Positions 7,847 to 24,638 of a stretch of 64,000 nucleotides of DNA are shown one piece after another. Source of the stretch: an uncultured Alphaproteobacteria bacterium (GTDB lineage: Bacteria > Pseudomonadota > Alphaproteobacteria > CAAHEQ01 > UBA3637); NCBI GenBank assembly GCA_949292205.1, contig CASEYR010000003.1:7870-71869 (forward strand), given 5' to 3'. The translations under genes and the position numbers were made by a program. The notes under the pieces were generated by a model. It was given only the letters and a program-made list of their open reading frames with translations, was not told where the DNA came from and searched no databases. Within the stretch, counting starts at the first letter, position 1, and each line of letters opens with the position of its first letter.

Positions 7847-8068
7847 ATGTTAACACTCATAACGACAGCTTGGAATAAAGCAAAATATTGGATTATCGGC
7901 GGTGGTTTGGCGATTTTATACCTGCTGGGCTATCAAAAAGGAAAACATAAAGAACAAGTCAAAACAATGAAAGGAACCTTAGAAAATGTTCAAAAAGCTA
8001 AAACTGTACGTGATAATGTTGTCGATATTGACCGTATCCGCCGGTTGCACGACAAATATAAACGGTGA
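7847..8068 (+). CDS. Rz-like inner-membrane spanin
   Basis: A 73-residue protein with one N-terminal membrane span (about residues 14-28, WIIGGGLAILYLLGYQKG) and a charged periplasmic helix (KHKEQVKTMKGTLENVQKAK ... DIDRIRRLHDKY). This is the architecture of a short i-spanin. In double-stranded DNA phages, i- and o-spanins join inner and outer membranes and disrupt the outer membrane at the end of lysis. The lipoprotein gene nested in the +1 frame at 7986 makes the assignment much stronger. AAAGGGAAACTACA precedes the start. The helix is shorter than in lambda Rz, as in many alphaproteobacterial prophages. Confidence 0.75.
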   Translation: MLTLITTAWNKAKYWIIGGGLAILYLLGYQKGKHKEQVKTMKGTLENVQKAKTVRDNVVDIDRIRRLHDKYKR

Positions 8069-8180
8069 TTTTTGCCTGATTTACGAGCCGATTTATGCGG
8101 ATTACGAGCATGATACCCCCGAAACGATCCGTCAAATAGACCGAAACAACCTCGTTTATGATGAAATGTGTTCGAATTAA
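7986..8180 (+). CDS. Rz1-like outer-membrane lipoprotein spanin
   Basis: A 64-residue protein with a basic N-terminus (MFKKLKL), a hydrophobic segment and the lipobox LTVSAGC, so residue 21 would be the lipidated Cys. The mature part is about 44 residues (DFCLIYEPIYADYEHDTPET, then IRQIDRNNLVYDEMC). It includes two further cysteines and the DTPETIRQID(R)NN motif, which I recognise as common in alphaproteobacterial prophage lipoproteins at this position. It begins inside the Rz-like gene in a different frame and ends beyond it, the lambda-type overlapped arrangement. It is probably the o-spanin partner of the gene at 7847. Confidence 0.75.
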   Translation: MFKKLKLYVIMLSILTVSAGCTTNINGDFCLIYEPIYADYEHDTPETIRQIDRNNLVYDEMCSN

Positions 8181-8230: not shown

Positions 8231-9010
8231 CTAAAAATTAAGTCCAATCTCATACGGAAAGAAAATGGATATATTTTTTGGCTGTTCCATAAATATGATC
8301 CTTTTTGAAATAGCAGTCATAAAACCAAACTCAAATATAGTTCCCTTGCCAACCACTCCACGAGGATCACAAACGATAATAGCATCCGCTTGTCTAAATT
8401 TTTCCATATGTTCATACTTATGCCGCCAAGTATCACGCTCATTTTTAATACAGTCTTGATAATCAAAAAGAATGAACTCAGTTCCTATTGTTTCTGGTTT
8501 AATTTTTGTTGAGGCTGGACTAAGTACATTAATATTATACCTATATAAATGTTTAATCAGTTTTTCAATGTCTTGTAAAAACTGTTGAAAGCTTCCGCAT
8601 ACAACAACATTTCTAAATTCCTGACATAGCAATCCTTGTATCATATTTTCAGATTCACAAATATTTCTGCTATTTTGCAAATAAAACTGTTCTAAATCGA
8701 AAGGCACTACATTAAAATAAAGAGCATAATCCACGAAAATGTTATTAACTATTTGATTTTTTTCCTCCTGTTTAAAATTTTGGAATAAACCCGTGGCATA
8801 TAACCTGACAGATGTATTATTTATTTCGTTTGTATAATTGCTTAAATGATTTAAAAATTCTTTTATCTTCTCTAAAACCTCACTTAAACAACCTGTTCCA
8901 AAGGAAACACGCTCCTCATTTAACATTTTTAATATACCATTTTTTAAATCATATATTTTAATGGTATCTGTATTAAAATGTACCAGTGTTTTATTGTCTC
9001 TATTTTCCAT
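8231..9010 (-). CDS. Ppx-like N-terminal segment fused to nucleoside 2-deoxyribosyltransferase-like domain
   Basis: A protein of about 259 residues with two parts. The C-terminal half resembles the nucleoside 2-deoxyribosyltransferase fold: VVVCGSF near residue 135, then NVLSPASTKI, a QADAIIVCDPRGVVGKGTIF segment and an FEFGFMTAISKRIIF helix, giving the G-x-G-T-x-x-E-x-G pattern with the usual Glu. Such enzymes cleave or transfer the N-glycosidic bond of deoxynucleosides, or remodel damaged bases. The N-terminal part (LVHFNTDTIKIYDLKNGIL, then VRLYATGLFQNF) looks like the first lobe of a Ppx/GppA protein and recalls the gene at 11696. GGAGG at 9016-9020 fits the ATG at 9010 better than 9022. 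It is the last gene of a five-gene leftward operon. Confidence 0.6.
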   Translation of the reverse strand: MENRDNKTLVHFNTDTIKIYDLKNGILKMLNEERVSFGTGCLSEVLEKIKEFLNHLSNYTNEINNTSVRLYATGLFQNFKQEEKNQIVNNIFVDYALYFNVVPFDLEQFYLQNSRNICESENMIQGLLCQEFRNVVVCGSFQQFLQDIEKLIKHLYRYNINVLSPASTKIKPETIGTEFILFDYQDCIKNERDTWRHKYEHMEKFRQADAIIVCDPRGVVGKGTIFEFGFMTAISKRIIFMEQPKNISIFFPYEIGLNF

Positions 9011-9043
9011 TTCTTCCTCCATTCATAGAAACTTTACATTGTA

Positions 9044-9760
9044 TTAACTTTTATACTTACAAAATGCATTCATATATTTATTCATAAATTTTTCTTTATC
9101 TTTTAAATTGTATTGCATTATAAAACGAGGATGCTCTAATGGTAATATTAAATCAAAAAACTTATGCTCCTCATTAAGTGTAGACAAAAAGCTATAATTT
9201 TCACCACTCCCAATACAATAACATACAGATGTATCAATACCTAAAGTTATTTGTCGATGAAGCATACGTACAATAAATGGTGATAATACCTCTCGTAATT
9301 TTTTATTTTCATAATAATTACAATTAACCTCATTACCTTTTGAGTTTATTTTAACTATCCCAAGAGGGCAAACAAAACTCATATAAAAGTCCGCATAAAA
9401 TTTATTACAACCACCATATTCATCCATAACTTCATATAAAAATCCTGATGAAGAGTGATTGATAAAAAATTTATCAATGGAAATTCCTGTTTCTTTTTGA
9501 AGATGTGCCGCATCTTCAAAGGGAACGCCGGTCACGGCTGTCCCCCGTCTGGCTGGAGAACTCCCAAGTATAAGGCGTCTAGGATTACTATCGTTATAAT
9601 ATTTTTGATAAAAAAGCGTTGTTACCTGTTTTACTTTCTCTTTTTGAGCGGCAACAAATGGATTGACCAGTCTAAACCCTTCTGGCAATGAAAGTGATTG
9701 ATGTGAAAGTTCATCATGAAAGCGCAATACGTTATCTGCAAAAGTTATTTGTTTCATCAT
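9044..9760 (-). CDS. SMUG2-type uracil-DNA glycosylase family protein (DUF4918)
   Basis: A 238-residue member of the uracil-DNA glycosylase superfamily, SMUG2/DUF4918 branch. Motifs: LVNPF near residue 31, FYQKYYNDSNPRRLILGSSP near 52 leading into the active-site loop (GSSPARRGTAVTGVPFEDA), KFYADFYMSFVCPLG in the middle, and the C-terminal LPLEHPRFIMQY block carrying the catalytic-loop HP. The family is expected to flip out and excise a modified base from DNA; this branch has not been tied to one substrate. The first loop reads SSPARRG rather than the usual NPG(R)xG, so substrate choice may differ. It lies 33 bases upstream of the deoxyribosyltransferase-like gene and 19 bases after the methyltransferase fusion. 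Confidence 0.8.
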   Translation of the reverse strand: MMKQITFADNVLRFHDELSHQSLSLPEGFRLVNPFVAAQKEKVKQVTTLFYQKYYNDSNPRRLILGSSPARRGTAVTGVPFEDAAHLQKETGISIDKFFINHSSSGFLYEVMDEYGGCNKFYADFYMSFVCPLGIVKINSKGNEVNCNYYENKKLREVLSPFIVRMLHRQITLGIDTSVCYCIGSGENYSFLSTLNEEHKFFDLILPLEHPRFIMQYNLKDKEKFMNKYMNAFCKYKS

Positions 9761-9779
9761 AATACTCGCCTTTGTTTGA

Positions 9780-11021
9780 TTACTTGACTGCTGTTAAATA
9801 AATTTCTGTTTTAGTTGGGAAAATTTGAATATTTTTAAATCCTATTTGAACGAAGTTTTTATGTAGCAACTTAACTGTATCTATCCCCCTATAAATATCA
9901 ACAAAATCTGTACCTGGAACTATTAAACCAGGGATAATTCGTTTTTCCCCAGAACATAAAAATCCATTGGCTATGGAAATAATTATAATAGCATCCTTTT
10001 TTAACACCCTGTATGCTTCTGATATTGCATGATTAATATCAAAAAATGAAGAATTATAGGTTCTTAAAGAAATATATAATTCATAGCTATTTTCATTCAA
10101 AGAAGATAAATTTTCCGCTTTAGAAACAACAAAATTAGATAATGGAAGTTGTATTTTAATTCGTTCAAGTCCCTCCTCAGCAATATCAACAAAGGTGATA
10201 TGAGGACAATTTGAAAATAAACTAATAGCTTCATTTCCAGAACCAACACCAACATTTAGTATATTCATACCAGGCATCGGCTTCTTAGATACCCTGTTAT
10301 AGATAGATTGAAAGGTTTGTTTCCATCCTAAATCAAATGAACGTATATCATTCAAATAATCATATTTACTATATTTGTTATTAAAGGCCTCGGATAAGAT
10401 ATTATCTACTATACAAGCGGCCTTCTCATACTCAATTTCATATTTATTAAAAATTAAAGATGCGAGAGCTGTACTTTTTTTATTTATATTAAGCTCTTCT
10501 TCAGAAATAGTTATACCTTTTCGTTCCAGTTTCTCTAACACAAAACTGCTGATTCTATTAGCAGAATAGTACGAACTATACTGAATGCTTTGTCTACTGT
10601 TTGCGTAAAAACGCTTATTCTGTTTTAATATTTCACGTTGTAAATCATCAGGGTAACGATGAACATAATCTAGTACCAGAACAGGATCCCCGTTTAGATA
10701 ATTTTCCAGCCTAAAATCCGGGATCCCTACATATATTTTACGAACGTGAATTAGCTTTAGTAATTCAATTAGATCAAATGACTCTGTTTTCGATAATGTA
10801 TTAACCGTGAGATAAAGACACCATCCATTGAAAAGACTACTCCCTTTTATTTTTTTTAACAAAACATCCAGCCAAGATGAATTCTCTTCTTCCCCAGTGT
10901 AAGCGGAACAAATCAATTCATTTTGCTTGGAAACAAGTACCACACCTGTTTTTAGTTTAGACCAAGGTGCTTTTTGTGAAATATTTATGGAATATTTCAT
11001 CCAGTATAAGTTATCTAACAT
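9780..11021 (-). CDS. RibD-like pseudo-deaminase fused to SAM methyltransferase
   Basis: A 413-residue, two-domain protein. Residues about 8-140 follow a RibD/cytidine-deaminase scaffold: KAPWSKLKTGVVLVS, ELICSAYTGEE, CLYLTVNTL, IHVRKIYVGIPDFRL, and LQREILKQNKRFYA, which is the typical RibD linker. The zinc ligands (HAE and PCxxC) are absent, so that domain should not deaminate and may bind nucleotide. Residues 255-413 are a class I SAM methyltransferase: motif I LNVGVGSGNEAISLF, an acidic FVDIAEEG loop, ISEAYRVLKKDAIIIIS and a C-terminal sheet. The target could be a nucleoside, a nucleotide or DNA. It overlaps the AlkA-like gene by 11 bases, indicating coupling. Confidence 0.65.
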   Translation of the reverse strand: MLDNLYWMKYSINISQKAPWSKLKTGVVLVSKQNELICSAYTGEEENSSWLDVLLKKIKGSSLFNGWCLYLTVNTLSKTESFDLIELLKLIHVRKIYVGIPDFRLENYLNGDPVLVLDYVHRYPDDLQREILKQNKRFYANSRQSIQYSSYYSANRISSFVLEKLERKGITISEEELNINKKSTALASLIFNKYEIEYEKAACIVDNILSEAFNNKYSKYDYLNDIRSFDLGWKQTFQSIYNRVSKKPMPGMNILNVGVGSGNEAISLFSNCPHITFVDIAEEGLERIKIQLPLSNFVVSKAENLSSLNENSYELYISLRTYNSSFFDINHAISEAYRVLKKDAIIIISIANGFLCSGEKRIIPGLIVPGTDFVDIYRGIDTVKLLHKNFVQIGFKNIQIFPTKTEIYLTAVK

Positions 11022-11688
11022 TATCTACATCGCCTTGTTTTCCCGAAATTACCTGCTCAAATGGTTTACAAATTAACCCCAATTCAATAGATTTCCATAG
11101 GTATGAAGAAACAATCGTAGCGTACTCCATCCAATTAGAGAAGTATTCCTTTATTACTCCTGTAGAAGGTATTTCATTCAGATTATACATCCATTGGATA
11201 ACACGCTTAAGAGTTCCATCACTCTCTGAAAAAATATTTTCTCGTTTTAATGAAAAAATCAAATACATCTCAGCGGTCCACCTCCCAATACCTTTTACTA
11301 AAGTTAATTGCGAAATTATCTTTTCATTTGAAAGTGTTTGTAATGTTCCAAAATCTATTCTTTTTCTTACAATTTCATATGCTAACGCCTTTATATATTT
11401 AACTTTATGTCTTGGAATTCCCGCTTTATAAAGCCCTTCATCACTCATTCCTAATATGTCATTAGGGGCAATATTTTCAATGTTAGAGCAAACTTTTTTC
11501 CAAATTGTTTCGCGTGCTTTATCACTGATTTGCTGTCCAATAATGTATTTTACAAGACATTTAAAAGAATCTTCCTCTATAGCTAGTTCACTAGAACCAA
11601 TATATTTGATTAGCTTACCCAAATTTTCATCGCTTTGAATAAGATATTTTACTTTTTCATCGTTCAAATCGTATTTTAAATAAATCAT
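11011..11688 (-). CDS. HhH-GPD DNA glycosylase, 3-methyladenine type (AlkA-like)
   Basis: A 225-residue base-excision glycosylase of the helix-hairpin-helix GPD superfamily. Visible: FKCLVKYIIGQQISDKARET near residue 43; LYKAGIPRHKVKYIKALA; then the hairpin LTLVKGIGRWTAEMYLIFSL followed by FSESDGTLKR, which supplies the catalytic Asp. This order is that of DNA-3-methyladenine glycosylase II without the AlkA N-terminal domain. It would remove alkylated purines or other damaged bases. A separate Tag enzyme occurs at 29012, so this copy is not the only alkyl-adenine glycosylase. It lies in the middle of the five-gene operon, seven bases after the Ppx-like gene. Confidence 0.85.
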   Translation of the reverse strand: MIYLKYDLNDEKVKYLIQSDENLGKLIKYIGSSELAIEEDSFKCLVKYIIGQQISDKARETIWKKVCSNIENIAPNDILGMSDEGLYKAGIPRHKVKYIKALAYEIVRKRIDFGTLQTLSNEKIISQLTLVKGIGRWTAEMYLIFSLKRENIFSESDGTLKRVIQWMYNLNEIPSTGVIKEYFSNWMEYATIVSSYLWKSIELGLICKPFEQVISGKQGDVDNVR

Positions 11689-11695
11689 AGTAATA

Positions 11696-12611
11696 TCATG
11701 AAAGTGGAGCCAAGTTTAAACAAGTTTTTACAAAACCTAACGCTATTCCATCATCTGTAGGGGATATTACTTTAATATCAAAAAATTTAACGAAATTTTC
11801 TAAAATCAATAACATTTTATCTGCTCCATACATAAAACTTGGGTTTTGTTCAAAATATTGAAATAAATCTTCATACTTTCTGTCCAAAAAAACATTATTT
11901 ATTAACGTATTGATGAAGCTAGCATCAAAAGAATCGTTACGCATAAAATTGAGCCCAGTTTTCTCAGAAAGACTATTAAAGAAACTGAGCATCTGGTTTG
12001 ATCCAACAACAACCCTCGTAAAGGTTCTGTGACAAATAGAAGAAAATATTTCTTTTTTTATATATTTATCCATAGCTGTATAGATGGCATTATCAAATAA
12101 CTCACCATTACTTTGGAATAAATTATGTAAAACATACGCGCCTAAGCTATAACAGTGGGTATTTAACATGCCTTTACATTTATAGATAGTGTTTATGCTT
12201 CCACCACCTATATCCAAAAGTAAATCAGATTCTGTCAAGTTAAAATTGGCAGCCAACAGTTCACACTCTCTCCTCGGTGTTAATATCTCCAAATCTATAC
12301 TAAACTTATTGGTAACTTTATAAAGGGCATCTTCTAGTTCATGACTTTTTCTAAAAGCCTCTGTTGCGATAGCTTTAAACTCAAGCTCGGTATCCTGAAA
12401 GTTTTCCATAAGGCCATTTATTTTTTCATTGAAGTCATTTAGAATTGCATATTTTTCATCATTGAAAATTTTATTGTTATCAGATAATAATTTTCCTATG
12501 GAAACATTTGTGAATTCTGTTTTTTTTTGTAAATTTCCCAAAATCATCAACTTTGCATAACAAGGTCTTAATTTTACTTGTTCCAAAATCAAATACAACC
12601 AAATTTCTCAT
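11696..12611 (-). CDS. Ppx/GppA-like phosphatase with one-base slip in an A9 tract
   Basis: A member of the exopolyphosphatase/guanosine pentaphosphatase (actin-like ATPase) superfamily, about 305 residues if read through. The true start at 12611 gives MRNLVVFDFGTSKIKTLL, the phosphate-1 loop, but this frame stops shortly after an A9 run (12520-12528). The rest is open in another frame: FKAIATEAFRKS, ILTPRRECELLAANF, the phosphate-2 loop LLLDIGGGSINTIY, and LGA. Removing one A (A8) joins both frames exactly. The slip could be an assembly error, phase variation or transcriptional slippage. The usual substrate is polyphosphate or a nucleotide phosphate; none can be assigned here. It is the first gene of the five-gene leftward operon. 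Confidence 0.7.
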
Positions 12612-12766: not shown

Positions 12767-15373
12767 TTAAAAAAAGCACTTGTCTTGGGTTTCATCCATG
12801 ATGGGTGTTTTTTGAAATTGCACCTTAAATATCGGTGATATCACAACAGATATTCCATCCGTTCCACACAGTTTCTCAATTTCGTCTTCGGCGGTGGCTT
12901 CGATACGCATTTGTTCAAAGAACAAGCCTTCTTCTTTTTTGCGGAGTTGTTTTTCCATTTCGTTGATTTGTTTTTGAATTTTAAGTTCTTCTAAGCGGTC
13001 TTTGGCACTGCCGATACTCTCTTTTATCTTTGATGTTTCCTGTCGTAAGGCTTCAAGAGTTTGTTCTAATACGGCTTTTTGACGAGATGAACGCATTTTA
13101 ATGATATCAATATCAGCATTAAAACAATTTTCTTGTTGCTTGATATAGTTGTTTTTCAACTCATCTTCTAAGAATACTGGCAACCTGTCAGAAAACGAAC
13201 TGTTTGCAAGCCAATAAGACCGTTCTCTATCCTTATTTTCAACAGATTTAATTGGCTGTGATAGAATTTTTACACATTCTTCTTGTGTTAAAATCTTGCC
13301 ATCTTCTGTTTTGCCGGTTAAAACATCATAACTTTTAAGAAACTTTCCTTTTCGGCGTAATTCAACATTGTACATACTAATTTGGCAAGGTTCAGTACCT
13401 ATTTCAAGGTTTATTTCGCCCTCTGTAGCACATTCAATTTCACTAAAAATTCCCTTGGCTAAAATAGAAGTTAAGGTAATTCTTCCGCTTGCCGGTTTAA
13501 AATCTTTGGCCATACCATACTGACGTTTTCCCGTATAAGGTGTGTTTCTTGTCCCACTCCAATAATAGAACATATGCGGTTGTTCACAATCATCCGGTAA
13601 AGTTAATGTTTGATTGATGTCATCAATAATATATTGAGGATGATGCTTTTCAAAATAAAACTTCACAACCTCCCATAAGTCCCGATTGAGAAATTCGGCT
13701 TGTTCTTGAATATACTGCGGTGAAACCTGTACTTTTTCGGCTACATCTTTTGTAAATGTCGTAAACAATACACTTTCGGCATCCGAAACAACTTGAGAGT
13801 TGGCATCTTTATTTGTTTCTAAGTTCTGTGCAAAATCCCGTTGAATATCGGGCAAGGTTCGGCGTTTTTGTAAAATAGCCTCCAAAGTTTCATCAAAATG
13901 GCCGACAATATCGTCCGACATGCCGAAAATACCCTGAAATTGTAAAGTTCGTTTGTTAATCAATTCCAAAATACGCACATCAGACATATTTTCCTGACTG
14001 AGCAAATTGATAACCAACACATCGGATTGTTGTCCTTGGCGGTGGCAACGACAAATTCGTTGCTCCATTTCAACGGCATTATAAAGTAAATCATAGTTCA
14101 CGACAACCGGACAGTATTCTATGTCTAAACCTTTGGCAGTTGCATCGTTTGTGATAAGAATTTGAATATTTTTATCTTCTCTAAAAATGTTCAAAGCATT
14201 ATCATCTGTGTGTTTTATAATCGAATAATGTTCCTTTAATAACTCTGATAAAACGGATAAAGTTGTCAGGTTATCAACAAAAATAATGTTTTTTTGCACT
14301 TCTTTGCGTGATTTTAAATGAGCAAAGGTTGTTTTAAGAGCCTTTAATAACGCATCCATTTTAGCAGAAACGGGAATTTCCAAAGCCATTTTTTGCATTG
14401 TCTGCAAAATAATGCGTTCATCAGACGAAGCCCGTTCAATCGGAGCCGACAACATATTCGCAAAAGCCTGCGGTGATGATGAAAGAGTTCTATAAAACTG
14501 TAATGCTAACTGATAATTATCCATTTGCGGATAGGCAGTTTTGTTATCAAGAGCCAAGTATTTTTCGGTTAAATCATAGAGTTTTTTTTCATCATTTATC
14601 GGACTATAATTGAGAACAACCGGTAGACGCTTGGTAAAATTAACATAAGGTTCAACCTGTCTTTTTAAAGTTCTAAACGCAAATTTGGATACCCATGATG
14701 AAAGTTCAGGATAGTTTTCGGGCTTTCTAAAATATCTTTTATAAAAACTGTCAGCATCGGGCAACAAAGTTTCATCAATAAAATGGATAAGTCCATAAAT
14801 ATCCATAATGCTTAATGTAATGGGCGTTGGTGTTAACAGCAGTTTAAACGCATTTCCAACCGCTTTTTTAATCGTGGCAACTGACTTGTTGTCCGGTTTA
14901 AATAGAAAATCCGCCTCGTCAAAAACCGCTAAATCCCAAACGATTTGACTGACTTTTTCTTCATTTTTAATGACTTCATCATACGTCATCAGGCACAGGC
15001 CTTTGGTCTCTTGCGTATATTCGCTCCAATCGGTTAGCGGTAAAGTAAACTCTTTGGTTAATTTTTCTTGCCATTGACTTTTAAGGTTTGATGGCAAAAC
15101 GATTAAAATCCGCTCTTTACCTTCATACCAACGCTGAGAAACGACTAATAATGCCTCGTATGTTTTACCTAAAGAGCCTTCGTCACACAGGATACAACCT
15201 TTTAAGTTCTGAGAACGTAATGCAAAACGGGCCGCCGCTATCTGATAAGGTAAAATCTTAATGTTAGCAGAGGCAAACGCAGGCACTAAATTTTCATCAT
15301 CAACAAAACCGGCTAAACATCTTGCCATCCAAACCGCTTCAAACGAAGATTGAAAACGTGAAGCCCCACTCAT
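12767..15373 (-). CDS. SNF2-family helicase associated with type III restriction genes
   Basis: An 868-residue superfamily 2 helicase of SNF2/RapA type. Motif I is degenerate-looking but complete (ILCDEGSLGKTYEALLV), motif Ia LIVLPSNLKSQW, motif II AVFDEADFLF, motif III LLLTPTPITLSIMDIYGLIH, motif V ITNDATAKGLDI, and motif VI EQRICRCHRQGQQ with both Arg fingers. The C-terminal third has a coiled coil (about residues 765-830, rich in KQINEMEKQLRKKEE) and a unique globular part. It starts three bases after the res stop and is the last gene of the operon. SNF2 helicases occur in several anti-phage systems (for example class 1 DISARM), but I do not know it as a standard type III component. It probably translocates on DNA to support restriction. 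Confidence 0.8.
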   Translation of the reverse strand: MSGASRFQSSFEAVWMARCLAGFVDDENLVPAFASANIKILPYQIAAARFALRSQNLKGCILCDEGSLGKTYEALLVVSQRWYEGKERILIVLPSNLKSQWQEKLTKEFTLPLTDWSEYTQETKGLCLMTYDEVIKNEEKVSQIVWDLAVFDEADFLFKPDNKSVATIKKAVGNAFKLLLTPTPITLSIMDIYGLIHFIDETLLPDADSFYKRYFRKPENYPELSSWVSKFAFRTLKRQVEPYVNFTKRLPVVLNYSPINDEKKLYDLTEKYLALDNKTAYPQMDNYQLALQFYRTLSSSPQAFANMLSAPIERASSDERIILQTMQKMALEIPVSAKMDALLKALKTTFAHLKSRKEVQKNIIFVDNLTTLSVLSELLKEHYSIIKHTDDNALNIFREDKNIQILITNDATAKGLDIEYCPVVVNYDLLYNAVEMEQRICRCHRQGQQSDVLVINLLSQENMSDVRILELINKRTLQFQGIFGMSDDIVGHFDETLEAILQKRRTLPDIQRDFAQNLETNKDANSQVVSDAESVLFTTFTKDVAEKVQVSPQYIQEQAEFLNRDLWEVVKFYFEKHHPQYIIDDINQTLTLPDDCEQPHMFYYWSGTRNTPYTGKRQYGMAKDFKPASGRITLTSILAKGIFSEIECATEGEINLEIGTEPCQISMYNVELRRKGKFLKSYDVLTGKTEDGKILTQEECVKILSQPIKSVENKDRERSYWLANSSFSDRLPVFLEDELKNNYIKQQENCFNADIDIIKMRSSRQKAVLEQTLEALRQETSKIKESIGSAKDRLEELKIQKQINEMEKQLRKKEEGLFFEQMRIEATAEDEIEKLCGTDGISVVISPIFKVQFQKTPIMDETQDKCFF

Positions 15374-15376
15374 TGT

Positions 15377-18300
15377 TTACACCGTTTGTTTGAATTCTTG
15401 CCATTCTCTGACAGGATTTTTTGAAAAACCAACACCATCCAAAGCCTTAAAGTGTTCGGCTCCGCACATGATTTTCAATTTTTCTTCTTCTCTAAGCAAG
15501 AATAAATTATCCGTTCCTTTGGTTTCTAACACAAAGTAAAGTTTTTGTTCGCCGTTCTTTTCCAAATAAACGGCCCAGTCCGGATTATAAGTCCCAATAG
15601 GTGTTTCAATTTTAAATCGGCTTGGGATTTTAAAGAACATTTTAACATCCGGATCTTTATCCAAGGCAAGAGCAAATTTGCTTTCAATACCGCTATCATA
15701 AATGACATGGTCATAAACACTGTTTTCAACGGCAACTGCATTCTTATCAAGGTTAGCTATCAACTCAGTGCTGTCAAAAATTTCTTGAACATAGTATTCT
15801 TCATCGGCGAGTTTGATATACTTAATGCCATCGATTGCCAGTTTATGACGATTACGCTCAATGATTTCCAAAGCTTTTTCATAAAACTCTTGCGGATTCT
15901 TCAAAAAATCTGCCATACGCCCACTTTCTTGTAAAATACGATTAACCGTTGAACGTTTCAAAAGCGTCTTAGTTGATATCAATCGCAAGATATCAGGTAA
16001 TGTTTCATAGTTACGGGTTAAATCTTGAATATATGTGCTTCCTGCTTGGTGTGAAACACCTGATTTTTCAATATTAACACTGGCTGTTTGACTGAGTAAG
16101 CGAGCCGTCCCGATTTCGGGCATTTCCTTAATTTCTTTTATACTGTTTGCAACCAAAGTATCCAAATCAAATTGAACACGATAAGTGGTCTTTTGCTTGA
16201 TTTTATTCCATAACTCCATAAATTCAGGACTGAGTATTGCTTTTTTCTTTAATTTAACAGTTACTTCTTTACTTGCATCCCGAATAACCGGTTTATTATC
16301 GGCTTTATTTAAGGCCTGTAAAACAGCACGTTGTTTAGCCTTTGACCATCTGTCACTTAAATTTAATGTACCGGCGGCCAATTCTGCCTTCATGGTATCT
16401 TTGATTTTTCCCTTACTGTCAATGACCTGAGTACCTTTTAAATCTTCCATGATTTGAGCGGCTTCTTCATAGCTGACAGAAACTTTTTCAACCTTTGTTT
16501 CGGTATAGGTTGTCTGTGAAAGGGATGCAACTGTTACGGGTTTTTCCTGTCTTATCGTTTCAATAATTTCTTTTTTTACAGGCTCCGGCACACTTGAAAG
16601 CTCAATTGTTTCAACGGCCACTTCTTTATTAACCGCCCCAAAATCATCAATAACGCCGGTCTTTTGCAGTTCTTGGACGACTGTTTCGGCCGTTTCCTGA
16701 GAGATTTGTTTTTCAACCTTAACTTCTTCTTCGTAAGTTAATCCTGTCAACATCCCGATTTCTAAAACGCCAAACTTAACACCGGTTTCTTCTTCAATTT
16801 CTTTTTGCAGTTTATCGGCAAACTCGGCAAAGCTTTCATTAGCAATGACATGCAAAACATTGACGTCTTTATCCTCAATGCGTTCGCCATCTTGATTGAC
16901 ACACAAACGAAGTCCTCGACCGACCTTTTGACGACAGGTAAAGACCGATTTTTGCTCGATTAAAGTGCAAACTTGGAAAACGTTCGGGTTATCCCAACCC
17001 TCTTTTAGTGCGGAGTGAGAGAAGATAAATCTTAACGGACATTCAAAAGATAGCAGTTTTTCTTTATCTTTCATAATGGTGTTATAGGTATCATCATCGG
17101 CCTGAGTATCGCCTTTAGTATCCTTATATTTACCTTTTTTATCTTGAGAGAAATATCCGTCATGAGCCTTGGCAACATCCGTATTAAACTTTTCTTTTAA
17201 AGCAGCATAACGAGGATTATTTATCAATTCATTATAGCATTCTTCAAACATTTTGGCATAAATGCCCGGTTCGCCGTCTTCAGTACGATACTTTTTAACC
17301 TCATCAATAAAGAATAAGGATAAAACCTTAATTCCTTTATCAAACAGGCGAATTTCCTTTTCCAAATGTGTTTTAATTGTGTGATAAATCTGAGCTCGTT
17401 TAATGATACTTTCATCAACACTACCGATAGCTTTACCCAAATTCAAGCATTCAGTATTGGAAAATTCAATACACTCATAACCGCTTGTGCAATCAATACC
17501 GGCTACAACATAGCCATTATATAATTGACGATGTCCTGATTTTAAGTACAGATCATCTCCCGGCTTAACGGTTATTGTTTTACGGGACACTTTACCGTCT
17601 TTGCCTTCAACATCAATTTCAATTTTGGCACTAAAACCACCGCTGTTAGAAACGGATTTTAACGCAATATAAGGTTTGTTTGAATCGTTGATGACCGAGT
17701 TTGAAATAACACAAATCTGCTTAACCAATCCCATTTGATAAGCATCAACCGGTGTTAAACGATAGACAAGGTTTTGCTTTTCTCTATGGGTTGCAGAATA
17801 ACGCAAAACGCACAAAGGATTTAAGGTCGCAATGGCTTCTTTTGCTTTTGGCGTATTATCAACACTTTGCGGCTCATCAATAATCACAACCGGATTTGTG
17901 TCTTGAATATAACGCATAGCGGTTTCGCCATTGAGCTTGTCTTGCTCTTGATTGATGATATTTTCAGCTTTTTTGAAAGCATCAATGTTGATAATCATAA
18001 TTTCAATGTTACTGGAGGTTGCAAAAGCCCGAACATCAGATAATTTTGCCGAATTATAGATAAAGTACCTGTAAGGCACGCTGTCATATTGATTTTTAAA
18101 GTGTTCTTCGGTGATATGGAAAGATTTATTCACACCTTCACGAATAGCAATACTTGGCACGACAATGATAAACTTTGTAAAACCATAACGTTTGTTGAGT
18201 TCCAAAATTGTTTTTGTGTAAACATAGGTTTTACCGGTTCCGGTTTCCATTTCAATGGAAATGGGGAAGGCTTTGTCAGATTCAATATCGGTTTGAGGTA

Positions 18301-18520
18301 AAGATTGACCTTTTTGAATATTTTTCAAATTAGAAACAAGCGTTTCTTTATCAAGCAGAAGTTTGTTACCAAAACCAAAATCATTTTGCAATAAACTGAA
18401 TTGAGCCGAGTTATCAACGATAGAAAAAGTTGTTCCGGCTTTTTCCTGTCCTTTGAATAAATCAGCAACAGCATTAACTGCCTTTTCTTGAAATTCCTGT
18501 TTCTTAAATTTTAGTTTCAT
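15377..18520 (-). CDS. res: Type III restriction enzyme, Res helicase-endonuclease subunit
   Basis: A 1047-residue Res subunit. Superfamily 2 motifs: IEMETGTGKTYVYTKTI (Walker A), VVIIDEPQSVD (DEAD-type box, DEPQ), LRYSATHRE, and KVGRGLRLCVNQDGER (motif VI). The C-terminal nuclease is a PD-(D/E)xK domain, with YNPDWAVYLE and LYFVLETKGTD near residues 960-1000. The length is normal for Res. In type III systems Res binds Mod, translocates or slides on DNA with ATP and cuts near one of two inverted recognition sites. It overlaps the BRO-N gene by one base and is followed by the SNF2 helicase. It looks intact. Confidence 0.92.
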   Translation of the reverse strand: MKLKFKKQEFQEKAVNAVADLFKGQEKAGTTFSIVDNSAQFSLLQNDFGFGNKLLLDKETLVSNLKNIQKGQSLPQTDIESDKAFPISIEMETGTGKTYVYTKTILELNKRYGFTKFIIVVPSIAIREGVNKSFHITEEHFKNQYDSVPYRYFIYNSAKLSDVRAFATSSNIEIMIINIDAFKKAENIINQEQDKLNGETAMRYIQDTNPVVIIDEPQSVDNTPKAKEAIATLNPLCVLRYSATHREKQNLVYRLTPVDAYQMGLVKQICVISNSVINDSNKPYIALKSVSNSGGFSAKIEIDVEGKDGKVSRKTITVKPGDDLYLKSGHRQLYNGYVVAGIDCTSGYECIEFSNTECLNLGKAIGSVDESIIKRAQIYHTIKTHLEKEIRLFDKGIKVLSLFFIDEVKKYRTEDGEPGIYAKMFEECYNELINNPRYAALKEKFNTDVAKAHDGYFSQDKKGKYKDTKGDTQADDDTYNTIMKDKEKLLSFECPLRFIFSHSALKEGWDNPNVFQVCTLIEQKSVFTCRQKVGRGLRLCVNQDGERIEDKDVNVLHVIANESFAEFADKLQKEIEEETGVKFGVLEIGMLTGLTYEEEVKVEKQISQETAETVVQELQKTGVIDDFGAVNKEVAVETIELSSVPEPVKKEIIETIRQEKPVTVASLSQTTYTETKVEKVSVSYEEAAQIMEDLKGTQVIDSKGKIKDTMKAELAAGTLNLSDRWSKAKQRAVLQALNKADNKPVIRDASKEVTVKLKKKAILSPEFMELWNKIKQKTTYRVQFDLDTLVANSIKEIKEMPEIGTARLLSQTASVNIEKSGVSHQAGSTYIQDLTRNYETLPDILRLISTKTLLKRSTVNRILQESGRMADFLKNPQEFYEKALEIIERNRHKLAIDGIKYIKLADEEYYVQEIFDSTELIANLDKNAVAVENSVYDHVIYDSGIESKFALALDKDPDVKMFFKIPSRFKIETPIGTYNPDWAVYLEKNGEQKLYFVLETKGTDNLFLLREEEKLKIMCGAEHFKALDGVGFSKNPVREWQEFKQTV

Positions 18521-19371
18521 TATGCGTCTTTCTTTGATTTGATTTGTTTTTTATCCGATTTTAGCGGTAAATAATTTTCATTTGTTACGACTTTTTGCCC
18601 AGTTTCTTCTTCAAATTTTTCTTTTGCCACTTTTGCAACATTACCACCTCGACGAGCAGCTTTTTTATTTTCATTCATACCGGTTGCTTCCATGTTTTCA
18701 GCCACTTGACGAGTGGAAAGTTCGGCCAAAGCTGTAAAGATGAGTTCTGCTTCACTCATGTGATCACGTAAGTTTTGCGATTTTAAACCTTTTAAATTTT
18801 TGTGTTGTTTAACGGACAAACCAGACCATTCCTGATGAATGATATTTGTTAAAATAGCATATTCTTGTTCGGAAGTAATATCATGGTCTTTCCAATAATC
18901 AGTCAATTTGTTGCGAGTTTCTTGCCCCATCATACGTTGTTGAATCCATTTTTCGGAATGTCCGAGCTTTTGCCAGTTTTCTCTTGCTCGGTTTAAACTT
19001 AGAGCAGGATCAACCGTTTCTTTCATGCGTTCATAACCGACACGAGCCAACCACTGTTTAATCGGTTCAGCCTTTGGACTGGGGACAGATTGAACAATAC
19101 GGAGCATTGTTTCTGCATCGGCCACATCTGTTAAATATTTTTTACCATCGGCTGCCTCTAATTTCAGTCGGTGACATTTTGACACCGACTCATCAGCACC
19201 TTCTGTTCTAAGGCGTTCTGCCAATTTATTCCAATATTTACGAGCAGATTGATACTCTTTTTCTGTTAAAATAACCATAACATCTACGATTGAAAAGAAC
19301 CACAAATCCCTTTCTTCATCATAAACAGACCGTATTTTACTTTGTTCAAAAAGTTTAATCTCGTTTTTCAT
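18520..19371 (-). CDS. BRO-N family protein, DinD-like
   Basis: A 283-residue protein with an N-terminal BRO-N domain: KIRSVYDEERDLWFFSIVDV, ILTEKEYQSARKYWNKLAERL, and the AETMLRIVQSVPSPKAEPIK block that marks DNA-damage-inducible D type proteins. The middle (ALSLNRARENWQKLG ... WIQQRM) and the basic C-terminus (ARRGGNVAKVAKEKFEEETG) also fit DinD, which in E. coli promotes RecA filament disassembly. BRO-N domains bind DNA in viral and phage antirepressors. Genes like this are often found between mod and res of type III systems, as here, where a regulatory or damage-sensing role is likely. It overlaps res by one base. Confidence 0.85.
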   Translation of the reverse strand: MKNEIKLFEQSKIRSVYDEERDLWFFSIVDVMVILTEKEYQSARKYWNKLAERLRTEGADESVSKCHRLKLEAADGKKYLTDVADAETMLRIVQSVPSPKAEPIKQWLARVGYERMKETVDPALSLNRARENWQKLGHSEKWIQQRMMGQETRNKLTDYWKDHDITSEQEYAILTNIIHQEWSGLSVKQHKNLKGLKSQNLRDHMSEAELIFTALAELSTRQVAENMEATGMNENKKAARRGGNVAKVAKEKFEEETGQKVVTNENYLPLKSDKKQIKSKKDA

Positions 19372-19401
19372 TTACTTCTTCCTAATCAATAACTTGTTTT
19401 T

Positions 19402-19427
19402 CAAAGGTGTCGAATTCGACATATTTG
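19402..19427. promoter_or_regulatory. 26-bp palindromic DNA site between mod and the BRO-N gene
   Basis: A perfect 14-bp palindrome TGTCGAATTCGACA (19408-19421) is flanked symmetrically by CAAA (19402-19405) and TTTG (19424-19427), with two unpaired positions on each side. It has no loop, so it is better read as a DNA-binding site than as a terminator hairpin. It lies 31 bp before the BRO-N start codon (19371) on the minus strand and just after the mod stop, where an operator controlling the rest of the operon would be placed. The binding protein is unknown; the BRO-N protein itself is a candidate. Confidence 0.45.
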
Positions 19428-19434
19428 AGATTAG

Positions 19435-21294
19435 TTACAACAATTCTATTTCAACGCCTTTGTCTTTTGAGATGTAGTAAGCGTTTGAAAGAGTGACATC
19501 GTCTTTGAATGCTTCTTCGGCGGCGACGATTTTGGCAGGTGTTAAATCACACATCGCCGAAATGTCTTCCGGAGTAATGCCCCCGTTAGAGCCGTCCAAA
19601 CATACTAAAATCAAACCATCATCGCCAATGGAATAGAGTTTACGACCGTTGATATCGGTTAAATTGACTTGATAAGTGACGGGAATACCCAATTTTAACA
19701 TCACTTCGTAAACGACATCTAATTCAGAGCGGTCAAATTTAAGTGTTTTGACAACAGAGTCAAAGCGTTCTCTTAACACCTCTGTCTCGCTGACCGGTGT
19801 ATCATCCCATTTAACGAGGTTTGATGTATCCAGTTTCAAAACCTTAAAGCCAACGTCAACATTGGGATTTTGTTCTTTTATTTTAGCGCCGGCACGGCGG
19901 ATACGCTCTTTTCCGATTTCACAAATGTTTTTGTAGCCGGCTTTGAATGCTTCCGACTTTTCATCGGTTACTTCCGGTAATTGCACCATGATAAATTGAC
20001 GTTTTCCGCCATCTTCAGCATTTAATTGCATAACCGCATGTGCCGTAGTTGCACTGCCGGAGAAAAAGTCTAGGATGATGTCGGTATCAGTAGCTGATGA
20101 TTCAATAAATTCTTTAAGTAATTCTACAGGTTTTGGATTTTCAAACACATCTTTTCTGCCAAATGTATCAGTTAGAACATTAGAACCATCGCCGGTATTA
20201 GCAACATCGTATAAAATACTTCGTTTCTTGATAATTCTTACTTGGTTATCAAAATACTCTTTTTCATAAGGAACCCAATTATCTCCTTTTCTCTCCCAAT
20301 AAATTAAATCTGAAGATTTTAATTCTGCCATTCTTTCTTTACCAACTCTCCAACGTCCATCATTCCCATCAGGAGCAATAGGAAAAGCTTCTGTTCCGTC
20401 TGGTGCAGTTAATGAAAAATACATAGATGGTCTATCTTCTCTACGAGCAGTATTTCCCCATTTTGCAAGTTTTGTTACTTTGAAATTTCCACGTTCATCT
20501 TTTTTATTATATTGAGAAATACTACGTTCTTCCGTCTTATCTATCCATTGTAATTGTTCACTTTTACGATATACGACAATATATTCATGTTCTATTGCAA
20601 AATATTCTTTTGCTTGTCCTCCACCATCTTTTTTGCGCCATATAAATGAACCTATAAAGTTTTCCTCCCCGAGAACCTCATTACATACTTTTTTAAGGTT
20701 ATCAACCTCGCGTTCATCAATGCTGATAAAAATGACACCGTCATCACGGAGGAGGTTGACCGCCAGTCTTAATCGCGGATACATCATATTCAACCAGTTG
20801 GTATGATACCGTCCCATTGTTTCGGGATTTGATTTTGTTGTTTGGCTTGTAATTTCTTTATATTTAGCCATTGGGTCTTTAAAGTCATCTTCATAAACAA
20901 AATCATTGCCGGTGTTATACGGAGGATCAATGTATATCATCTTCACTTTGCGATAATAGGCCGTTTGCAACAGTTTCAAAACTTCCAAATTGTCGCCTTC
21001 AATATACAGATTATTGGTGTTTTCAAAATCAACACTTTCTTCCGGACACGGGCGGAGTGTTCCCGTTGAACGCTTGCCGGCTATCCGATAGCATTCGGAT
21101 TTACCTTTCCATTCAAATTTATACTTTTCAAAATCGTTGTCTATGTATTCGCCACATAAAGACAATAGTTTATCAATATCCAAATTCCCCTCGGTAAAAC
21201 ACTCAGGAAAAACTGTTTTCAACTTTTCCTTGTTTACGCCCGTCACATCAAGGCTTTTGCCGTCCATTTTTTGAATTTGAATATCGTCTGCCAT
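19435..21294 (-). CDS. mod: Type III restriction system DNA methyltransferase (Mod)
   Basis: A 619-residue adenine-type DNA methyltransferase of the beta class. The catalytic motif comes first (KMIYIDPPYNTGNDFVYEDD, with DPPY), the SAM-binding motif I later (IILDFFSGSATTAHAVMQLN), and a large variable central region for target recognition lies between them. A short GDGSNVLTDTFGRKDVF precedes motif I. It protects host DNA by methylating one strand of the target and also gives Res its specificity. The C-terminal 120 residues are typical of Mod proteins (VTYQVNLTDINGRKLYSIGD). It is first in the leftward operon mod, BRO-N, res, SNF2. The target sequence cannot be read from the protein. Confidence 0.92.
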   Translation of the reverse strand: MADDIQIQKMDGKSLDVTGVNKEKLKTVFPECFTEGNLDIDKLLSLCGEYIDNDFEKYKFEWKGKSECYRIAGKRSTGTLRPCPEESVDFENTNNLYIEGDNLEVLKLLQTAYYRKVKMIYIDPPYNTGNDFVYEDDFKDPMAKYKEITSQTTKSNPETMGRYHTNWLNMMYPRLRLAVNLLRDDGVIFISIDEREVDNLKKVCNEVLGEENFIGSFIWRKKDGGGQAKEYFAIEHEYIVVYRKSEQLQWIDKTEERSISQYNKKDERGNFKVTKLAKWGNTARREDRPSMYFSLTAPDGTEAFPIAPDGNDGRWRVGKERMAELKSSDLIYWERKGDNWVPYEKEYFDNQVRIIKKRSILYDVANTGDGSNVLTDTFGRKDVFENPKPVELLKEFIESSATDTDIILDFFSGSATTAHAVMQLNAEDGGKRQFIMVQLPEVTDEKSEAFKAGYKNICEIGKERIRRAGAKIKEQNPNVDVGFKVLKLDTSNLVKWDDTPVSETEVLRERFDSVVKTLKFDRSELDVVYEVMLKLGIPVTYQVNLTDINGRKLYSIGDDGLILVCLDGSNGGITPEDISAMCDLTPAKIVAAEEAFKDDVTLSNAYYISKDKGVEIELL

Positions 21295-23353: not shown

Positions 23354-24232
23354 ATGCTAATAATCAACATCAACGGACCGATGAATTCCGGAAAGTCAAC
23401 TGTTTCTAAAATTTTAGTGACTATGTTGGCAAATGCTACATTCATTGAAGTGGATGAGTTGATGAGTGATCAAGAACAAAAACAATTAGGACTTTCCATC
23501 CAGCAAGGATGGCGTGAACGCCATAAACGATTAAATCAAAGATTGAAAGACCTTAAAAAAACACGGGAATATGAGATTATCTTGTTTGCCTATCCGATTG
23601 CCGATAACACTTATCAAGATTGGAAAAAAATGGAGGATAGTCAAACGCATTTTTTGAATATTACTCTTGCACCGAGTCTGGAAGAATGTTTAAAAAACAG
23701 AGGTACACGAGAACTCAATGATTGGGAGCGTAATCGTATCCACCAAATGTATCAAGAGGGCTATCAAAATCGTCCATACTCTGACTTTATTATCAATAAT
23801 GACAACCTAACACCCGAAGAAACTGCCAAAATCATCAAAGGCTTTGTAGAACATACCCTGTATCCAAAACAGCAATGGCTACATTTAGTTGAACGACGCT
23901 GGTCAGCTCTTGTCAACGGTTGCAAGACATCTACTCTCAGATTAAACGAAGGTTTTATTCATAAAGGTTTTTTGGTTTACAAAGACTGCCCAAAAGAGCA
24001 ATGGGCTGAAGTCGTCTATGTGACTCAAGTCTATTATCTACCACTTAAACAAGCTTTGCAAACAGAGGGGTTTAACGATCATACACCTAACTTAGAAACA
24101 GGGCTTCAACAAATGCAAACTCATTATCCCGATATTACTTTGAATACTCCTATTTTGCTGGTAAAACATTTAAGTGTTCCCGAAACAAAGAGATTATATC
24201 CAAATGAAGTCAAGGCAATTTTAAATGCGTAA
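23354..24232 (+). CDS. P-loop kinase fused to ASCH domain
   Basis: A 292-residue fusion. Residues 1-165 are a small P-loop kinase: Walker A INGPMNSGKSTVSKIL, then FIEVDELMSDQEQ, and an EYEIILFAYPIA strand. Residues about 175-292 form an ASCH domain: WLHLVERRWSALVNGCKTST followed by LRLNEG, an AEVVYVTQVYYLPLKQAL core and VKHLSVPETKRLYP. ASCH domains bind RNA or modified nucleosides; one bacterial member hydrolyses N4-acetylcytidine. The fusion therefore suggests nucleoside recognition coupled to phosphorylation. It overlaps the Nudix gene by eight bases, so the two are probably made together. Confidence 0.78.
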   Translation: MLIININGPMNSGKSTVSKILVTMLANATFIEVDELMSDQEQKQLGLSIQQGWRERHKRLNQRLKDLKKTREYEIILFAYPIADNTYQDWKKMEDSQTHFLNITLAPSLEECLKNRGTRELNDWERNRIHQMYQEGYQNRPYSDFIINNDNLTPEETAKIIKGFVEHTLYPKQQWLHLVERRWSALVNGCKTSTLRLNEGFIHKGFLVYKDCPKEQWAEVVYVTQVYYLPLKQALQTEGFNDHTPNLETGLQQMQTHYPDITLNTPILLVKHLSVPETKRLYPNEVKAILNA

Positions 24233-24638
24233 ATCGGCTCGTACCATACTGATTACACAAGAAAATAAACTCCTGTTAATGAAACGCACTAAACCAGGGA
24301 GCGTTTATTACGTCACAATCGGTGGCGGTATTGATGAAGGAGAAACGGCCGAACAAGCTCTTATCAGAGAATTAAAAGAAGAGAGTGGCAGTATTGTGAC
24401 AAACATTCAGTTTGTTTTTCATTATGATGATTGGGAAAAGCAAAACAGCGTCGATTTTTTTGTGTGTCAAGAAATAAAGAGAACAACACCTACCGGAACC
24501 GAATGGACGAAATGGAATTCTGACGATAACCGGTATGAACTTGTAGAATTTTCCGGTGATGAATTGTCGGATTTGCCATTAAAGCCCGACAACATAAAAG
24601 ATAAAATCATAGATATTTTTAAGAACTCTATTTTGTAA
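24225..24638 (+). CDS. Nudix hydrolase
   Basis: A 137-residue Nudix enzyme. The box is complete: GGGIDEGETAEQALIRELKE followed by ESGS, with the REL-x-EE-x-G core that binds Mg2+. Near the N-terminus, TILITQENKLLLMKRTK is the usual first strand. A C-terminal helix pair (DLPLKPDNIKDKIIDIF) resembles enzymes acting on nucleoside diphosphate derivatives. The start at 24225 overlaps the kinase-ASCH gene, and a good site lies inside that gene. The substrate cannot be predicted. Confidence 0.88.
   Translation: MRKSARTILITQENKLLLMKRTKPGSVYYVTIGGGIDEGETAEQALIRELKEESGSIVTNIQFVFHYDDWEKQNSVDFFVCQEIKRTTPTGTEWTKWNSDDNRYELVEFSGDELSDLPLKPDNIKDKIIDIFKNSIL

Follow-up and report, generated by a model that had tools for sequence, protein, structure and literature searches.

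A packed alphaproteobacterial operon with DNA-glycosylase-family genes shares a three-gene core with actinobacterial secondary-metabolite clusters

We analyzed a window of 64,000 nucleotides, the whole stretch taken from contig CASEYR010000003.1 of an uncultured alphaproteobacterium, and studied within it an operon of five coding regions located on the minus strand at 8231-12611. Three of them encode a methyltransferase with a deaminase-like domain (MT), a uracil-DNA-glycosylase-family protein (UDG), and a protein with a nucleoside 2-deoxyribosyltransferase-like domain (NDT), and they form a trio that is conserved in actinobacteria. We tentatively favor the reading that the operon is a horizontally acquired cassette handling an abnormal nucleobase or nucleotide, with a three-gene core belonging to actinobacterial secondary-metabolite clusters and with a role in detoxification or resistance in the window. 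An undescribed trio, predicted to act on nucleobases, is strictly tied to uncharacterized Streptomyces aryl-polyketide clusters and is also present in an alphaproteobacterium. Should it prove to be a resistance unit, it would be a tag for the mining of natural products likely directed at DNA or nucleotides, and the UDG superfamily would join the self-resistance glycosylases; a biosynthetic role would point to new base-modifying chemistry.

The operon and its conserved trio

The five genes, all on the minus strand, are the following.

11696..12611, minus strand: gene 1, Ppx/GppA-like protein of about 300 aa (PF02541, 3e-9; TIGR03706, 4e-12)
11011..11688, minus strand: gene 2, AlkA-type HhH-GPD DNA glycosylase (PF00730, 5e-15)
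9780..11021, minus strand: gene 3 (MT), CDA/RibD-like N-terminal domain fused to a UbiE-type S-adenosylmethionine (SAM) methyltransferase (PF08241, 2e-10)
9044..9760, minus strand: gene 4 (UDG), SMUG2-type uracil-DNA-glycosylase-family protein (PF03167, 2.6e-13)
8231..9022, minus strand: gene 5 (NDT), Ppx/GppA N-lobe followed by a nucleoside 2-deoxyribosyltransferase-like domain; likely start ATG 9010

Seven bases separate gene 1 from the AlkA gene, which overlaps the MT gene by 11 bases; 19 bases lie between the MT and UDG genes, and 33 between the UDG and NDT genes when the latter starts at ATG 9010, behind a GGAGG (21 with ATG 9022). The GC content of each gene is 29.5-31.5%, with 0.21-0.27 at third codon positions (GC3), vs 36.7-38.2% in the neighboring island and 38.3% in the whole window. 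An earlier note on this DNA had described five packed leftward genes, one pair overlapping and the others 7-33 bases apart, more AT-rich than their neighbors, and the measured values agree with it on each of these points. The families that it had assigned were recovered by Pfam and PDB searches and, for the N-lobe of gene 5, by a fold match. The five-gene set itself was retained only in part, as its families and packing hold but gene 1 is out of frame, so that four genes are intact as read. Promoter and terminator scans of the operon returned chance level only.

The UDG aligns with the structure 5h0j over 230 residues (2e-63; residues 5-234, full length). We take 5h0j/5h0k to be SMUG2 of Pedobacter heparinus (the PDB record reads "uncharacterized protein"). 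The two proteins thus belong to the same fold family over their full length and have the CPLG and LEHPRF motifs in common, and motif 2 (H210-P211-R212) is invariant in the 13 trio sequences that we aligned. In contrast, motif 1 reads GSSPARRG in 13/13 of these sequences while SMUG2 has GINPGRFG, an Asn-to-Ser change. Identity to the actinobacterial orthologs is 55-59%. At 66% identity, a stand-alone protein of Listeria is the nearest relative and groups with the window UDG with a support of 0.88. This Listeria monocytogenes protein of the SMUG2 type (L029, 8001-8708) has the same GSSPARRG motif. Retention of LEHPRF and the stand-alone occurrence in Listeria fit a DNA substrate for the UDG. The kinship with the Listeria protein and the low GC are compatible with an operon coming from an AT-rich donor. 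Another match, on a Streptococcus salivarius plasmid (L030, 6001-6455), was set aside as a decayed GSSPA-type SMUG2 remnant beside a ThiF/ABC-transporter cluster.

The deaminase-like N-terminal domain of the MT is recognized at only 0.011 (PF00383), and its zinc motif (HAE and PCxxC) is absent from the aligned sites of the 13 sequences, which read xSW and NTLS. On the other hand, the SAM motif G258-V-G260-x-G262 and the acidic D279 are kept. The fold matches yeast Coq5 and 3dh0 (Z 17), the structure search giving only generic methyltransferases among its matches, and identity to the Streptomyces and Saccharothrix orthologs is 47-52%. Judged from the alignments, the lost zinc ligands and the Asn-to-Ser change of the UDG indicate altered substrates.

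The C-terminal half of the NDT protein matches PF05014 at 1.5e-4, with 22.3 bits, below the curated cut-off of 28.8, and its identity to the actinobacterial orthologs is 47-51%. In an AlphaFold model (mean pLDDT, the predicted local distance difference test, of 74), residues 8-133 match the Ppx/GppA N-lobe fold (Z 10.9, 3.0 A, 119 residues). E231, in a G-T-x-F-E-x-G segment, is present in 13/13 sequences and the upstream D213 in 12/13, with a Glu in the remaining one, the roles of both residues being assigned by analogy with NDT/DNPH1. MilB and BlsM are NDT-superfamily nucleotide hydrolases of nucleoside antibiotic pathways. The trio NDT resembles DNPH1/RCL and MilB by its NDT-type domain, its conserved catalytic-type Glu and the Asp of nearly all trio sequences, whereas it differs from them by a CGS-type N-terminus and its position behind a Ppx/GppA N-lobe.

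Finally, the AlkA-type glycosylase encoded by gene 2 has 2h56, a DNA-3-methyladenine glycosidase, as its best solved relative (1.3e-30); the HhH-GPD domain is present and the catalytic Asp is aligned. The host genome holds other UDG-family and HhH-GPD proteins, so the glycosylases of the operon are additions to a general set.

Actinobacterial copies and their gene clusters

A tblastn search with gene 5 returned five Streptomyces plasmids (47-51% identity, 96-97% of the protein covered), 5/5 with the trio in the order of the window. We also scanned 84,980 species genomes with near-exact 8-residue peptide patterns, which divergent copies could escape, and found the trio in actinobacteria only: complete in eleven Streptomyces/Kitasatospora and one Saccharothrix, plus one contig-edge fragment. 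Two further trio genomes came from sampling. Altogether, MT, UDG, and NDT genes in the same order and on the same strand, at 47-59% identity, were found in 19 actinobacterial records (18 Streptomyces/Kitasatospora and one Saccharothrix), some plasmid and genome entries of which may be the same species. Identities between the window and Streptomyces/Saccharothrix are concordant for the three proteins (MT 51/50%, UDG 58/56%, NDT 50/48%). Among 249 Streptomycetaceae genomes sampled, five gave a strong UDG match, and 5/5 carry the full trio and the cluster described below. A sixth plasmid, from Streptomyces sp. NBC_00984 (L031, 4321-5217), contains decayed UDG and NDT pieces near TniQ-family genes. 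A search of the order of Saccharothrix returned the trio in Saccharothrix only, other matches being weak and partial. In proteobacteria, overlapping samples of 385 genomes from the class, 398 from the phylum, and 43 from the family contained no trio relative other than those of the host itself. The host assembly is of about 1.3 Mb, and its 16S gene has Azospirillum and acetic-acid bacteria as closest matches in the collection searched (about 84%), which makes an alphaproteobacterium most likely. Since the host is an alphaproteobacterium and the other copies are actinobacterial, the trio crossed phyla. Its fixed order, its conservation across phyla, and catalytic residues that are kept or altered alike everywhere argue that the trio is more than a chance assembly.

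The two upstream genes behave differently. Relatives of gene 1 were found neither in the actinobacterial trio loci nor on the plasmids searched, and relatives of gene 2 neither in these loci nor in 12 trio-bearing genomes. No second copy of the complete five-gene set appeared in the searches made. The co-occurrence expected from the earlier note was therefore not found for the five genes, although genes 3-5 are a conserved syntenic actinobacterial trio. Its claim that the operon has no described equivalent agrees with our literature and library searches, restricted to open-access papers, in which no described cluster with both UDG and NDT was found.

In 18/18 Streptomycetaceae records, the trio lies directly upstream of an aryl-acid-ligase/ketosynthase (KS)/chain-length factor (CLF)/thioesterase (TE) cluster. 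The first gene of this cluster encodes a carrier-adenylation protein (PCP-A, PCP being a peptidyl carrier protein) with benzoate/anthranilate ligases as its nearest relatives, and is accompanied by a KS with its active-site Cys, a Cys-less CLF-like protein, and then a carrier-thioesterase (PCP-TE). The cluster also contains a second NDT-like protein, in the opposite orientation and with a CGSTRF motif, usually an APH-family protein, and often a NUDIX gene. The stand-alone second NDT-like protein (CGSTRFMxEM by eye, no Pfam match) is conserved near both a Streptomyces and the Saccharothrix trio (L010, 13937-14326; L027, 14121-14402). In Saccharothrix, the trio adjoins amidase, tryptophan-dioxygenase, and aminotransferase genes, together with the relative of the second NDT-like protein.

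The polyketide synthase (PKS) core alone is more widespread (44-65% CLF identity), and 5/5 inspected loci of this kind lack the trio; these aryl-ligase/KS/CLF relatives are all from Streptomycetaceae (L088, L089, L090, L091, L093). The trio position of one more close core (G1203) would fall off the contig, as this core is at its edge. As the PKS core occurs without the trio and the trio without the PKS core, in Saccharothrix and in the window, the trio has a separable function. One trio-less locus, L088, contains an AvaA6-type diazotase beside the core, plus a Rieske oxygenase, and this diazotase relates the core family to the avenalumic and p-coumaric acid clusters (ava, cma; PMC10777205), which have the same core of aryl-acid ligase, KS, CLF, and acyl carrier protein (ACP). 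The trio clusters differ from ava/cma by the MT-UDG-NDT genes and PCP-TE, and no close diazotase was found in the flanks examined.

Possible roles of the cassette

We infer the enzymatic activities, the shared substrate, and the resistance role from the protein families and the conserved residues. In the reading that we favor, the NDT-domain protein would act on the pool, by cleaving the N-glycosidic bond of an abnormal nucleoside or nucleotide. The same base, or a related one, would be excised from DNA by the SMUG2-type glycosylase. The MT would methylate either the base once freed or the toxic compound, and its inactive deaminase domain may serve to bind the base or nucleotide. To this set, the window organism adds the AlkA-type glycosylase and the Ppx-like protein, of phosphatase fold. 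No ligase, KS, TE, or transporter gene lies beside the window copy, which would thus act in detoxification or resistance rather than in production. Base removal both from the pool by NDT and from DNA by UDG, with AlkA in the window, would fit the clean-up of an abnormal base, for which two precedents exist. DNPH1, of the NDT superfamily, clears 5-hydroxymethyl-deoxyuridine monophosphate (hmdUMP), the base of which is excised from DNA by SMUG1 (PMC10603095, which also mentions MilB), and AlkZ-type glycosylases encoded inside genotoxin clusters give self-resistance (PMC9040887). Like AlkZ, TxnU2/4, and HedH4, the trio provides a DNA-glycosylase-family gene inside an actinobacterial secondary-metabolite cluster (PMC9040887). 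It differs from them as its glycosylase belongs to the UDG superfamily and not to HTH_42/AlkZ, is always accompanied by MT and NDT, and comes with no known genotoxin product; the Pfam scan gave no HTH_42/AlkZ homology in the operon proteins, so the likeness is one of role only.

The presence of AlkA as a second DNA glycosylase in the window, with its catalytic Asp aligned, supports this reading. Several points weigh against it. All activities of the trio proteins are predicted, and the invariant Asn-to-Ser change in motif 1 leaves the UDG reaction uncertain. A clean-up pair for pool and DNA needs no methyltransferase by itself, the reading presumes a cluster product that damages DNA or is a nucleoside, and the AlkA and Ppx-like genes are outside the actinobacterial unit. 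A two-level base sanitation, in which the Ppx-lobe/NDT protein clears the pool, the divergent SMUG2 clears DNA, and the pseudo-deaminase-MT inactivates the freed base, and which spread as a resistance unit from an actinobacterial self-protection, seems unlikely to us.

Biosynthetic tailoring is a close rival, doubtful but well within reach, because of the methyltransferase and the altered motif of the UDG. NDT and the glycosylase relative would then release or exchange a nucleobase that MT methylates, the Streptomyces aryl-acyl polyketide line would add an acyl group, and the window would make a simpler product. Such a role would suit the linkage to the aryl PKS core in 18/18 Streptomycetaceae and the amidase/tryptophan-dioxygenase/aminotransferase set of Saccharothrix, as well as the second CGS-type NDT-like protein, the APH-type kinase, and the frequent NUDIX gene of the same cluster. 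The departure of UDG motif 1 from the SMUG2 catalytic Asn and the existence of MilB and BlsM point the same way. However, genes for a ligase, KS, TE, or transporter are missing beside the window copy, the SMUG2 HPR motif is retained in the UDG, which also exists alone in Listeria, and AlkA-type glycosylases act on DNA. It could also be that the five genes do not make up a single unit, and that the trio was transferred and lies by chance beside an AlkA gene and a Ppx-like pseudogene in decay, which arrived in the same AT-rich stretch. The lack of the five-gene set elsewhere, the lack of AlkA and Ppx-like genes in all actinobacterial loci, and the broken frame of gene 1 would agree with this, but the likeness of all five genes in low GC, GC3 (0.21-0.27), strand, and spacing (7-33 bases, one overlap) makes it improbable.

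The earlier note had proposed a base-handling unit, possibly anti-phage. Its N-glycosidic-bond core stands (3/5 genes co-conserved, in fixed order and with invariant key residues), while the anti-phage role is not supported. In an anti-phage system, the glycosylases would excise the hypermodified bases that phage DNA contains, with the NDT/Ppx proteins acting on phage-specific nucleotides. Such an action of the window copy is possible by analogy, considering its position beside a type III restriction island and prophage lysis genes, and considering that the UDG-superfamily glycosylases Brig1/2/3 defend against modified-base phages, a helper hydrolase being encoded with Brig3 in a small operon (PMC11078745, PMC13160076). 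Nothing specific speaks for it, and we judge it improbable. Among PADLOC models, MT alone gave a match, to the generic methyltransferase part of mad2 (9e-9), the other four proteins giving none; the MADS defense system was rejected as its other genes were not matched. INPHARED contained no NDT relatives and UDG matches in Listeria phage records only, no relatives of trio MT were found among phages, and IMG/VR contained no relatives of NDT, UDG, MT, AlkA, or Ppx. A phage origin of the operon was rejected for the same reason, save for these Listeria UDG records. Furthermore, the actinobacterial home of the trio is secondary metabolism and not defense islands, a context which argues against a dedicated anti-phage system. 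Unlike Brig1/Brig3 (PMC13160076), the trio has no phage-related context outside the window.

Gene 1 and the surroundings of the operon

The Ppx/GppA domain of gene 1 scores 37.1 bits vs a curated cut-off of 27, with a weak match to Aquifex Ppx (1t6d), and its reading frame is broken at a run of nine A. The frame starting from ATG 12611 (MRNLVVFDFGTSKIKTLLCKVDDFGKFTKKN...) runs through nine A to a stop, with 43 codons in total, and the conserved remainder is in a different frame beyond the run.

12520..12528: A9 homopolymer on the coding strand (T9 on the plus strand), site of the gene 1 frame change

The run itself is unremarkable because the window contains four runs of 9, none being longer. 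The frame break may result from an assembly error, a phase-variable state, or slippage. TTG 12598, given as an open reading frame start for gene 1, is spurious, since it is in the wrong frame for the N-terminus. Profile comparison did not detect homology between gene 1 and the gene 5 N-lobe, and the Ppx relation common to both is drawn from Pfam in the case of gene 1 and from the fold match in that of gene 5.

As the earlier note had stated, a prophage end lies on one side of the operon, with lysis genes ending at 8180, and a restriction island on the other.

7847-8180, convergent with the operon: overlapping Rz/Rz1-type spanin pair, prophage end (phrog_1026, phrog_1275)
12767-21294, minus strand, as the operon: type III restriction island with an SNF2 helicase, type III Res, a BRO-N protein (phrog_15286), and a DNA methylase

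The operon is directly downstream of the island, and about 50 bases separate it from the spanin pair, so that it could be prophage cargo. The presence of SNF2 and BRO-N genes inside a type III restriction-modification unit is striking. Elsewhere in the window, an AAA/ASCH-domain protein gene is followed by a NUDIX hydrolase gene with an 8-base overlap (23354-24638), and a Tag-type 3-methyladenine glycosylase (PF03352; 29012-29593) is a further base-excision gene.

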